Part shown: positions 916-9,760 of the stretch, piece after piece
Layout of the letters: every line of letters begins with the position of its first letter
Position numbering within the stretch: position 1 is the stretch's first letter
Assembly: GCF_018603905.1 (NCBI RefSeq)
Contig: NZ_JAHFZZ010000001.1
Location: 1 to 64,000, forward strand
Origin: Nonomuraea sp. NEAU-A123
GTDB taxonomy: Bacteria > Actinomycetota > Actinomycetes > Streptosporangiales > Streptosporangiaceae
Direction of reading: 5' to 3'
Length of the DNA: 64,000 nt
Position numbers and translations under genes: made by a program
The notes under the pieces: model-generated
Told to the model about the DNA's origin: nothing
Seen by the model: the letters and a program-made list of their open reading frames with translations, nothing else
The model's database searches: none

Positions 916-4791
<3,876 letters not shown>

Positions 4792-4803
4792 TCAGCTCTT
4801 CGA

Positions 4804-4851
4804 AGCACCGCGTCCGGATCTTGGTGATCCGGGCGCGGTGCTTTGTTTTGT
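4804..4851 (+). terminator. Intrinsic terminator of rpoBC
   Basis: A 17-bp stem (4804-4820 with 4826-4842, one G-U pair) closes the five-base loop TTGGT. It is followed by TTTGTTTTGT. It starts 12 bp after the rpoC stop and is a textbook Rho-independent terminator, rare for this GC content in having a real T-rich tail. Confidence 0.93.
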
Positions 4852-5182
4852 CGTTACGGCCAGCCCGGTGGGCCCCACCCGCCATACGGGGCCGGGCTCC
4901 CTCCAGGGGCACGCTCCTCCGGCTTACGGGGCTGGGCGCCGCTACGTGCGCGCTCTGGGCCGTCTGGGTGGTCGGGGGGGTAGCCGGGACCACTCCACGG
5001 GTCCCGATGCCTGGTGCGCCCATCCAGCGCGCGCACGGCCATGCGCCGGCCATCCTGGTGAACCGCGACCAAATACTCCGCGGGCCGGATATCATGAGCG
5101 TGGAGCAGTAGCCGGGCATGTATCGAAGAGGGCCCAGCGACCAGCGGTAGTGGCAAAAGCGTGTCCGCTTTGTCGCGCTGCT
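4852..5182. other. Long rpoC-rpsL spacer with no supported gene
   Basis: This stretch between the rpoBC terminator and the rpsL promoter holds no gene I can support. Open frames exist on both strands, but none has a credible start with a ribosome site. One plus-strand frame (to 5111) has GC-rich third positions and a short hydrophobic stretch, but its only starts lie inside the terminator hairpin. Confidence 0.5.
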
Positions 5183-5211
5183 TTGACGTGTCGCATGGGC
5201 CTGGGTAGTCT
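5183..5211 (+). promoter_or_regulatory. Sigma-A-type promoter of the str operon
   Basis: TTGACG (5183-5188), 17 bp, then TAGTCT (5206-5211) match a housekeeping promoter. Transcription would start near 5218, leaving a leader of about 215 nt before the rpsL start. The long leader could hold post-transcriptional control, but I see no named motif in it. Confidence 0.7.
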
Positions 5212-5432
5212 AGAGCTTCGTGCCCGTCGTTAGCGGGCTCTCGACTGTGCGCTCATATACGGGAGCGCCAGACGGCTTCCTGGCTCGTTGTCCCTGCGGA
5301 TGTGTCTGTGCGAAGAGCGCGACACGCCCGAGCGCGGGGGCGCCGAGACGGGGAAAACCAGCAGGTCATGACACCGGCAGAACCTGCGAAATGCACAAGA
5401 CGTATTACCGGCCAGCACGAAACGGAGTGGCA

Positions 5433-5807
5433 GTGCCCACTATTCAGCAGTTGGTCCGCAAGGGCCGGCAGGACAAGGTCGCCAAGACCAAGACTCCTGC
5501 CCTAAGGGCGAATCCGCAGCGTCGAGGTGTGTGCCAGCGCGTTTACACCACGACCCCTAAGAAGCCCAACTCGGCACTGCGCAAGGTGGCCCGTGTTCGG
5601 CTCACCAACGGCATCGAGGTCACGGCTTACATCCCCGGAGTGGGCCACAACCTGCAGGAGCACTCCATCGTGCTCGTGCGCGGCGGTCGTGTGAAGGACC
5701 TGCCGGGTGTCCGCTACAAGATCATTCGCGGCTCGCTGGACACCCAGGGTGTCCGCAACCGCAAGCAGGCTCGCAGCAAGTACGGCGCGAAGAGGGAGAA
5801 GAGCTAA
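5433..5807 (+). CDS. rpsL: 30S ribosomal protein S12
   Basis: S12 (124 aa) of the decoding centre. The start is GTG ([12 protein letters not shown]), chosen because the family begins MPTIQQL and a GGAG site lies just upstream. K43 in [11 protein letters not shown] and K88 in [13 protein letters not shown] are the wild-type, streptomycin-sensitive residues. D89 is the usual methylthiolated aspartate. First gene of the str operon; rpsG follows by 2 bp. Confidence 0.98.
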
Positions 5808-5809
5808 CT

Positions 5810-6280
5810 ATGCCTCGCAAGGGTTCTCCCGGCCGCCGTCAGCTCATGTCTGACCCGGTCTACAGCTCGCCGCTGGTCACCGCTCTGATCAACAAGGTGC
5901 TCCTGGACGGCAAGCGTTCCATCGCGCAGTCGATCGTGTACGGCGCCCTTGAGGGCTGCAGGGACAAGACGGGCAACGACCCGGTCGTCACCCTGAAGCG
6001 CGCGCTTGACAACGTCAAGCCGACCCTCGAGGTTCGCAGCCGTCGTGTTGGTGGCGCGACCTACCAGGTGCCGGTCGAGGTGCGCGCAGCGCGCAGCACG
6101 ACCCTGGCCCTGCGCTGGCTGGTGCAGTACTCCCGCGCCCGCCGCGAGAAGACCATGACCGAGCGCCTCATGAACGAGCTCCTCGACGCCAGCAATGGCC
6201 TCGGAGCGAGTGTCAAGAAGCGCGAGGACACCCACAAGATGGCCGAGTCCAACAAGGCCTTCGCCCACTACCGCTGGTAA
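5810..6280 (+). CDS. rpsG: 30S ribosomal protein S7
   Basis: S7 (156 aa) nucleates the 30S head by binding the 3' domain of 16S rRNA and contacts E-site tRNA. It begins [10 protein letters not shown] and contains the conserved [12 protein letters not shown] and [11 protein letters not shown] segments. It lies 2 bp after rpsL and 39 bp before fusA, so the three are co-transcribed. Confidence 0.98.
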
Positions 6281-6319: not shown

Positions 6320-8419
6320 GTGGCCGCAACGACCGCTCTAGACCTGGCAAAGGTCCGAAACATCGGGATCATCGCCCATATCGACGCGGGTAAGACCACC
6401 ACGACTGAGCGCATCCTGTTCTACACCGGCATCAACTACAAGATCGGTGAAGTCCACGATGGCGCAGCCACCATGGACTGGATGGAGCAGGAGCAGGAGC
6501 GTGGCATCACGATCACGTCCGCTGCGACGACCTGCGAGTGGGACGGTCACACGATCAATCTCATCGACACCCCGGGTCACGTCGACTTCACTATCGAAGT
6601 CGAGCGCAACCTGCGCGTCCTCGACGGCGCCGTAACCGTCTTCGACGGTGTGGCGGGTGTCGAGCCGCAGTCGGAGATGGTGTGGCGGCAGGCTGACCGC
6701 TACAACGTCCCGCGCATCTGCTTCGTGAACAAGATGGACCGCGTCGGCGCGGAGTTCCACCGCTGCGTCGACATGATGGTCACCCGCCTGGCTGCCACCC
6801 CGGCGGTCGTTCAGCTTCCCTGGGGCGTCGAGGCCGGTTTCAAGGGCGTCATCGACCTGGTGAAGATGAAGGGCCTGCTCTGGAGCGAGGACGCGGCCAA
6901 GGGCGAGATGTACGACGTCGTCGACATCCCGGCCGACCACGCCGAGGCTGCTCGCGAGTGGCGTGACAAGCTCGTCGAGACGATCGCCGAGAACGACGAC
7001 GAGTTGATGGAGCTCTTCCTCGAGGCCGTCGAGCCCACCGAGGAGCAGCTGGTCGCGGGGATCCGCCGCGCCACGCTGTCCGGCGCCGTCAACCCGGTCC
7101 TCACCGGCACCGCGTTCAAGAACAAGGGCGTACAGCCCCTGCTCGACGCGGTCGTCGCCTACCTCCCCGCGCCGATCGACATTCCCGCCATCGCGGGCCA
7201 CGCGGTCGGCAACGAGGAGAAGGTCATCGAGCGTCACGCGGACCCGAGCGAGCCGTTCTCCGCGCTGGCATTCAAGATCGCGAGCGACCCGCACCTGGGC
7301 AAGATCACCTACATCCGCATCTACTCGGGCACGCTCGAGACCGGTTCACAGGTTGTCAACTCTGTGAAGGGTAAGAAGGAGCGGATCGGCAAGATCTACC
7401 AGATGCACGCCAACAAGCGCGAAGAGCGCCCGTCGGCGATCGCTGGGCAGATCGTCGCCGTCATGGGTCTCAAGGACACCACGACCGGTGACACCCTGTC
7501 CGACCCGGCCAACCAGGTCGTGCTCGAGTCGATGACGTTCCCGGCTCCGGTCATCAACGTCGCGATCGAGCCCAAGACCAAGGGCGACCAGGAGAAGCTG
7601 TCGACCGCGATCCAGCGGCTGGCCGAGGAGGACCCGTCCTTTCAGGTCCGTCGTGACGATGAGACCGGCCAGACGGTCATCTGGGGCATGGGCGAGCTTC
7701 ACCTTGAGATCCTCGTCGACCGTATGCGTCGCGAGTTCAAGGTCGAGGCCAACGTCGGCCGCCCGCAGGTGGCCTACCGCGAGACCATCCGCCGCACGGT
7801 GGACAAGGTCGACTACACCCACAAGAAGCAGACGGGTGGGTCCGGCCAGTTCGCGCGGGTCATCATCAAGCTCGAACCGCTGGGCGAAGGCAACGACGGC
7901 TACGAGTTCGAGAACAAGGTCACGGGTGGCCGGGTCCCGAGGGAGTACATCCCCTCGGTCGACGCGGGTGCCCAGGAGGCCGCCGAGTTCGGCGTGCTGG
8001 CCGGCTACCCGATGGTGGGCGTGAAGGTGACGCTGATCGACGGTGCCGCGCACGACGTCGACTCCTCGGAAATGGCCTTCAAGATCGCCGGCTCGATGGC
8101 CTTCAAGGAGGCCGCTCGCAAGGCCGACGCTGTACTTCTCGAACCGATGATGGCCGTCGAGGTCACCACGCCCGAGGACTACATGGGTGACGTCATCGGT
8201 GACCTCAACGGTCGCCGCGGGCAGATCCAGGCGATGGACGAGCGGGCTGGCGCCCGTATCGTCTCGGCGCTCGTACCGCTTTCTGAGATGTTCGGCTACG
8301 TGGGCGACCTGCGTAGCAAGACGCAGGGGCGCGCGAGCTACAGCATGCAGTTCGACTCCTACTCGGAGGTGCCCCCGGGCATCGCCAAGGAGATCGTCGC
8401 GAAGGTCCGGGGCGATTAG
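6320..8419 (+). CDS. fusA: Elongation factor G
   Basis: Translocation GTPase (699 aa, GTG start). The G domain shows [12 protein letters not shown] (G1), RGITIT (G2), DTPGHVD (G3) and NKMD (G4). Domain IV contains GGSGQFARV. Length and motifs are those of a canonical EF-G1. A SD-like GAGAGAAG precedes the start. The gap to tuf is 147 bp and holds two hairpins, suggesting separate control of tuf. Confidence 0.98.
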
Positions 8420-8566: not shown

Positions 8567-9760
8567 GTGGGCAAGGCCAAGTTCGAGCGGAACAAGCCGC
8601 ACATGAACATCGGCACCATTGGGCACATCGACCACGGTAAGACCACGCTCACCGCGGCGATCACCAAGGTGCTTCACGACCGTTTCCCCGAGCTGAACAA
8701 GGCGACGCCGTTCGACAAGATCGACAAGGCGCCCGAGGAGAAGGCCCGCGGGATTACGATCTCCATCGCGCACGTCGAGTACCAGACCGAGAAGCGTCAC
8801 TACGCTCACGTGGACTGCCCTGGTCACGCCGACTACGTGAAGAACATGATCACCGGTGCCGCGCAGATGGACGGTGCGATCCTCGTGGTCGCCGCCACTG
8901 ACGGCCCGATGCCGCAGACGAAGGAGCACGTCCTCCTGGCCCGCCAGGTCGGCGTCCCCTACATCGTCGTAGCCCTCAACAAGGCCGACATGGTCGACGA
9001 CGAGGAGATCCTGGAGCTCGTCGAGCTCGAGGTCCGTGAGCTGCTCTCGGCTCAGGAGTTCCCCGGCGATGACCTTCCGGTCGTTCGCGTCTCCGCGCTC
9101 AAGGCTCTTGAGGGCGACTCGAAGTGGGCCGACAGCATCATCGAGCTGATGGACGCGGTCGACGAGAACGTGCCCGAGCCGCCCCGTGAGACGGACAAGC
9201 CGTTCCTCATGCCGGTCGAGGACGTCTTCTCGATCACCGGTCGCGGCACGGTCGTCACCGGCCGTATCGAGCGCGGTGTCGTCAAGACCAACGAGCAGGT
9301 CGACATCATCGGCATCAAGCCGGAGAAGACGACCACCACGGTCACCAGCATCGAGATGTTCAACAAGATCCTCGACGAGGGTCACGCGGGCGACAACGCC
9401 GCGCTGCTGCTTCGCGGCATCAAGCGCGACGACGTCGAGCGCGGCCAGTGCATCATCAAGCCGGGCACGACCACCCCGCACACCGAGTTCAACGGCCAGG
9501 TCTACATCCTGTCGAAGGACGAGGGCGGCCGCCACACGCCGTTCTTCAACAACTACCGCCCGCAGTTCTACTTCCGTACGACTGACGTGACCGGTGTCGT
9601 GCACCTCCCCGAGGGCACCGAGATGGTCATGCCGGGCGACAACACCGAAATGCGCGTTGAGCTGATCCAGCCCATCGCCATGGAGGACGGTCTCAAGTTC
9701 GCGATCCGTGAGGGTGGCCGCACCGTCGGCGCCGGCCGGGTCATCAAGATTATCAAGTAG
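8567..9760 (+). CDS. tuf: Elongation factor Tu with unusual domain 2
   Basis: EF-Tu (397 aa) delivers aminoacyl-tRNA to the ribosome. Start is GTG behind AAGGAGAACCA; the family length and MxKxKFER start fit. G motifs are [16 protein letters not shown] and NKADM. Domain 2 is odd: [10 protein letters not shown] and [10 protein letters not shown] replace the near-universal TG(V/I)EMFRK and (G)(E/D)NVG(V/L)LLRG. S261 and A279 are the equivalents of E. coli G257 and G275, positions where S and A/S substitutions give GE2270A resistance. Kirromycin-site residues (equivalents of Q124, G316, A375) look wild type. It follows fusA, as in most str operons. Whether another tuf copy exists cannot be seen. 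Confidence 0.98.

Follow-up and report, generated by a model that had tools for sequence, protein, structure and literature searches.

The str-operon tuf gene of Nonomuraea sp. NEAU-A123 encodes an elongation factor EF-Tu that is predicted, from its pocket residues, to be resistant to the thiopeptide GE2270. The gene is best read as an inherited target-site resistance allele in a host that is not itself a producer, and a probability of roughly 0.7 was assigned to this reading. Alleles of this kind are already known; the distribution of this one is broader and less expected. The window was the whole stretch of DNA analysed (64,000 nucleotides).

In the window, tuf1 is the last gene of an ordinary str operon comprising the end of rpoB, rpoC, rpsL, rpsG, fusA and tuf (Table 1). 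It was assigned as the str-operon tuf1 by the gene order rpoC-rpsL-rpsG-fusA-tuf and by the full length of its EF-Tu, which was 72% identical to the E. coli tuf product on alignment. A preliminary description of this DNA had claimed that Ser261 and Ala279 replace two glycines, E. coli G257 and G275. Both codons were read as claimed and the alignment bore out the numbering, as it did for the unusual neighbours Asn266 (R262), Ala278 (V274) and His273 (R269). The placing of the residues in the GE2270A pocket agrees with the accessible text of PMC8183687, where 12 strong contacts are given: D216, G222, R223, T256, G257, E259, F261, R262, N273, V274, G275 and L277. Four of these 12 are altered in the window EF-Tu (Ser257, Asn262, Ala274 and Ala275 in the E. 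coli numbers used hereafter for the pocket), and these four are also the domain-2 residues of the Planobispora rosea type. Outside these contacts, Gln163 (9053-9055) of the window EF-Tu corresponds to E. coli Y160, which we take to be a position for another EF-Tu drug; Gln was also present there in one aligned mycobacterial EF-Tu.

Table 1. Coordinates of the str operon, of tuf1 and of the codons discussed, as positions in the window
Feature	Position	Strand	Remark
rpoC	916..4791	+	upstream border of the rpoC-rpsL gap
rpoC-rpsL gap	4792..5432		cluster site in G133, G039, G228 and G242
rpsL, str operon	5433..5807	+	start codon set by eye; aligned protein from 5436
rpsG, str operon	5810..6280	+	
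fusA (EF-G), str operon	6320..8419	+	comparison gene for tuf history
tuf1, EF-Tu, S-type drug pocket	8567..9760	+	397 aa, GTG start
Met13 (ATG)	8603..8605	+	outside domain 2; S-type marker within the family
Ser261 (AGC) = E. coli G257	9347..9349	+	codon read, alignment; next residue Ile262 = V258
Asn266 (AAC) = E. coli R262	9362..9364	+	alignment
Ala278-Ala279 (GCC GCG) = E. coli V274-G275	9398..9403	+	alignment; GCG = 9401-9403

The residues are not peculiar to this host. A DNA pattern for T-S-x-E-M-F-x-K was found in 53 of 341 Streptosporangiaceae genomes; the pattern admits a few other residues, and a few of its matches lie outside tuf. In the Nonomuraea group, tuf1 was found by protein search in 53 of 54 genomes (47 at 95-100% identity, six at 91-92%), and 47 of these 53 were of the S type. 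The S-type set was also present in Spongiactinospora, in one carrier of a thiomuracin-type cluster and in one carrier of a GE2270 cluster matching that of P. rosea. Within the Planobispora-like group, the pattern occurred in one of four genomes, namely the cluster carrier. The 12 contacts were read in 104 family genomes, comprising the 53 pattern carriers and 51 others, with 237 genomes presumed to be G type outside that reading. Two states were found, DGRT-S-EF-N-N-AA-L in 53 genomes (S type) and DGRT-G-EF-R-N-VG-L in 51 (G type); no intermediate was seen at these contacts in the 104 genomes, and the S-type set is therefore not due to chance. When 61 operons were aligned, columns 13, 261, 262, 266, 268, 278 and 279 parted 20 S rows from 41 G rows with no exception, and column 273 separated them less cleanly. 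Residue 13 was Met in 20/20 S-type and Val in 41/41 G-type rows compared.

The preliminary description had raised the case of the same residues in GE2270-sensitive relatives. The residues were indeed found in many relatives, and no GE2270 sensitivity data were found for those relatives. Likewise, the accessible parts of the literature searched held no MIC or binding value for any S-type non-producer. A report of the allele's spread across Nonomuraea was not found there either, subscription papers being mostly outside the scope of that search.

The window tuf had been described as the only one visible, which holds within the window and fails for the genome. A genome-wide search for a second tuf returned a 59% identical EF-Tu gene at G000:C12:746977-748149, G000 being the host genome. 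The pocket of this second EF-Tu has Asn216, Gly262, Ala274 and Ala275, yet Gly257. A second EF-Tu was matched at E 1e-100 in 49 of the 54 Nonomuraea-group genomes.

The host assembly (12.7 Mb, 82 contigs, completeness 100, contamination 4.06) was searched for a thiopeptide cluster, since the preliminary description had supposed that the host makes, or lives with, an EF-Tu-targeting thiopeptide. A query for pyridine synthase of the PbtD type had matches in 72 of 341 family genomes and none in G000; many of the matches were about 40% identical and are therefore probably of other thiopeptide kinds. No precursor with an SCNCxCxxCCSCS core was found either, with a query that matched 35 of the 341. 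The single YcaO gene adjoins a TfuA-like gene (G000:C34:102186-103091; L001:164-2637), and a split LanB-type dehydratase was absent from the 3.9 kb read around it. The host rpoC-rpsL gap (647 bp) gave no match to cluster proteins and no detected remnant. A GE2270-class cluster near tuf, as found with the P. rosea gene though unnecessary for resistance, was thus absent. The YcaO/TfuA region is a possible peptide-modification locus; reading frames resembling ABC transporters were seen beside it by eye.

That the host makes an EF-Tu-targeting thiopeptide, with the allele as self-resistance, is very improbable. The YcaO gene and the presence of such precursors in five Nonomuraea-group relatives would fit it, but the YcaO gene stands with TfuA, both the pyridine synthase and the precursor were missing from an assembly rated 100% complete, and the rpoC-rpsL gap was empty. 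The host was accordingly rejected as a producer of the known cluster type, and on the first two of these grounds it is taken to be a resistant-type non-producer.

Clusters were present in relatives. At least one precursor was read for each of the 35 matching Streptosporangiaceae genomes (30 + 5), some second matches in G257, G006, G143, G134, G291 and G072 lying outside that reading. The SCNCxCxxCCSCS core was found in seven: G228, G242 and G039, with SCNCFCYICCSCS, and G133, G212, G235 and G221, with SCNCVCGFCCSCSPSA, which in G133 ends the precursor. All seven genomes with this GE2270/thiomuracin-type precursor were S type (Fisher p 1.5e-6, uncorrected for kinship and with non-pattern genomes counted as G). 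The family also yielded 31 other thiopeptide-like precursors, whose cores vary (23 + 8; L320-L342, L392-L399).

In four of the seven genomes, the cluster occupies the rpoC-rpsL gap (Table 1). The site in G133 holds YcaO, LanB-type, P450, methyltransferase and radical-SAM genes together with the precursor, an arrangement that, as read from the sequence, matches the one published for P. rosea. From this arrangement and the precursor, G133, here called P. rosea-like, is probably P. rosea itself. The gap was ordinary in G235 (598 bp) and G221 (650 bp), where the precursor was on another contig; that of G212 was outside those read. Among 52 Nonomuraea-group gaps, with the rpoC border visible in 49, 16 were at least 1 kb, and similarity to cluster proteins was confined to G228, G242 and G210. 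The G210 gap contained broken P450, radical-SAM, TetR, YcaO and M20-peptidase genes plus an IS110 transposase, with no precursor match in the genome; it was the one decayed cluster in the 52 gaps. At the site of clusters elsewhere, upstream of rpsL, Spongiactinospora (L183) has M14 peptidase and metallo-beta-lactamase-fold genes, and L184 has a gap of 6.6 kb.

A variant of the preferred explanation differs in the selecting source: the allele would be kept because soil neighbours, not ancestors, make EF-Tu thiopeptides. Of the 53 S-type genomes in the family, 46 showed no SCNC-type precursor, and groups outside the family have the set with no detected cluster, as this variant would predict. We nevertheless consider it rather unlikely, since a decayed cluster persists in an S-type Nonomuraea (G210). 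That remnant, together with same-site clusters in four genomes, favours the view that some lineages at least descend from carriers.

The history of tuf was compared with that of fusA. Six changes of the S label, at least five of them by starred branches, were needed on the fusA tree (56 rows), against three on a tuf tree from which the marker stretches had been left out. G133 paired with a Planobispora-group genome in the fusA tree (98%) and joined S-type Nonomuraea in the tuf tree (94%). At the 3' end, G133 tuf was 99-100% identical to that of the same Planobispora-group genome. Acquisition of the whole G133 str operon from Nonomuraea is ruled out by the fusA grouping and this 3' end.

Recombination was assessed by permutation in ten tests and three controls, with eight marker codons omitted. 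The tuf genes of five G-type Nonomuraea (G222, G254, G241, G209 and G244) are mosaics around domain 2, with p values of 0.0005 to 0.005; the sixth G-type genome, G238, was outside the test. In three of these five, a gene that is elsewhere Nonomuraea-like has a G-type stretch at about nt 626 to 946. For G133, p was 0.006 against three references and 0.13 against six. Recombination was unsupported for G039 (p 0.40), G062 (p 0.24) and Spongiactinospora (p 0.51), and the controls gave 0.48, 0.54 and 0.91. With synonymous sites only, over a preset stretch of nt 600-900, values were 0.037 for G133 and 0.001 for G222, with no signal in G039 (0.27), G062 (1.0) or G209 (0.58). On these values, recombination within tuf has support in Nonomuraea; in G133, where the outcome varies with the references used, it is only suggested.

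A sample of 394 genomes from the class, of which 41 belonged to the family itself, gave nine pattern matches. Six were outside the family: three had the full set, one (G571) had Ser257 alone and two (G524, G665) were outside tuf. The search was widened around two outside hits, and the pattern then matched 62/151 and 59/150 genomes in groups that are presumably Corynebacterium and Pseudonocardiaceae. Thirty-five loci were read, 15 in the 62/151 group (one not tuf) and 20 in the 59/150 group (one with no readable pocket, two with Ser257 alone). S-N-A-A was found in 14 and 6 of them respectively; over both groups there were 11 S-K-A-A loci, two with Ser257 alone and two unreadable. The statement that other actinobacterial EF-Tus keep both glycines therefore holds for most of 80 named-record loci (residue 257: 77 Gly, 2 Ala, 1 Ser; residue 275: 79 Gly, 1 Ala), which were picked by likeness to the window EF-Tu and include some from outside the actinobacteria, but does not hold for the pattern carriers in the family and in these two groups. 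EF-Tu of Dactylosporangium (L034) and Frigoribacterium (L036) has Ala at 257 with Gly275. Every EF-Tu from outside the family that was read at position 13 had Val there; Met13 thus marks this family and does not belong to the recurrent set.

A tuf tree of 76 chosen rows, made without the trait columns, required eight state changes, at least five of them forced; 13 rows had other states, such as G-H-A-G, S-R-V-G and A-R-V-G. A pyridine-synthase match was found in 0/6 outside pattern carriers, by a search run without a positive control. As the set is common there and these six gave no match, a link to thiopeptides is unsupported outside the family.

The set might accordingly be a neutral or otherwise selected domain-2 state with little tie to thiopeptides, shaped for instance by aminoacyl-tRNA binding, by temperature or by another EF-Tu inhibitor. 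Its recurrence in three or more further actinobacterial groups, where Lys262 forms and partial states also occur, would suit this, as would the repeated changes on the tree and the failure to find a pyridine synthase in the six pattern carriers from outside the family. We regard it as unlikely, because the four changes sit on GE2270A contacts, seven of the seven family cluster carriers found have the set, and the only cluster carrier of the Planobispora-like group is also its only S-type member.

Under the preferred reading, of a resistance allele inherited by a non-producing host, Ser257, Asn262, Ala274 and Ala275 would reshape the domain-2 pocket where GE2270A and thiomuracin sit. Ser257 and Ala275 would place side chains where the thiopeptide packs, and Asn262 and Ala274 would shorten other side chains that touch it. 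With its pocket so reshaped, EF-Tu could continue to bind aminoacyl-tRNA despite the drug, as the title of an E. coli mutant study suggests; by that title, resistant EF-Tu with the drug bound to it still binds aminoacyl-tRNA productively. The allele is usual in Nonomuraea, occurs in a few neighbouring taxa as well, and is also present in genomes that lack the cluster. In the family, it accompanies thiopeptide clusters that are gained and lost, frequently at the rpoC-rpsL site beside its own operon, and it would outlive those that are lost.

A broader reading is offered tentatively, at rather less than even odds. The two main states of actinobacterial domain 2, G-R-V-G and S-(N/K)-A-A, might form a thiopeptide-immunity switch, the second state having arisen several times, been exchanged by recombination inside tuf and left immune non-producers when clusters were lost. 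The exchange would perhaps have carried sensitive segments into Nonomuraea tuf and a resistant one into a Planobispora-like tuf. Such a switch, if real, would explain why a Nonomuraea, strain ATCC 39727, serves well as a GE2270 host and Streptomyces serves poorly. The difference in GE2270 expression between a Nonomuraea host and Streptomyces is raised as a question in the accessible part of PMC3943966, in which the 250 mg/L host also received P. rosea tuf on a cosmid. The S-type allele suggests a testable reason for that difference.

Most members of a genus thus have, as their ordinary tuf1, a resistance allele known from one producer. Because of this, and because the set recurs in other actinobacterial groups, the allele alone does not identify a producer, a point to heed where target variants serve as signposts in genome mining. 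S-type and G-type sister strains within one genus also provide natural material on thiopeptide escape by EF-Tu.

Published experiments bear on how such an allele acts. As described in the available portions of PMC3943966 and PMC12309360, P. rosea tuf added to S. coelicolor that kept its own tuf gave no resistance, and replacement of S. coelicolor tuf1 by P. rosea tuf gave resistance with a growth cost. This contrast fits a need for all cellular EF-Tu to be altered; in the host, both copies differ in the pocket. Introduction of four P. rosea point mutations into S. coelicolor tuf1 was unsuccessful according to the 2025 paper (PMC12309360, in the part available), and the residues alone may therefore not suffice. 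The same portion of that paper describes EF-Tu3, the second EF-Tu of Streptomyces, as GE2270A-resistant. The host likewise has a second, divergent EF-Tu, whereas the window gene is the str-operon tuf1.

In E. coli EF-Tu, G257S and G275A/S reportedly give GE2270A resistance. The window EF-Tu resembles these laboratory mutants in being altered at both 257 and 275, but the natural allele joins both changes with Asn262 and Ala274 and is common to most of a genus. The EF-Tu1 of P. rosea, cited as resistant in the preliminary description, is so described in the part of PMC3943966 available. The P. rosea-like G133 has a GE2270 cluster just upstream of its tuf operon genes, in contrast to the cluster-free window. 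The EF-Tu of G133 is 95% identical overall to the window EF-Tu, shares its str-operon location, and is identical to it at the 12 GE2270A contacts and at Met13.
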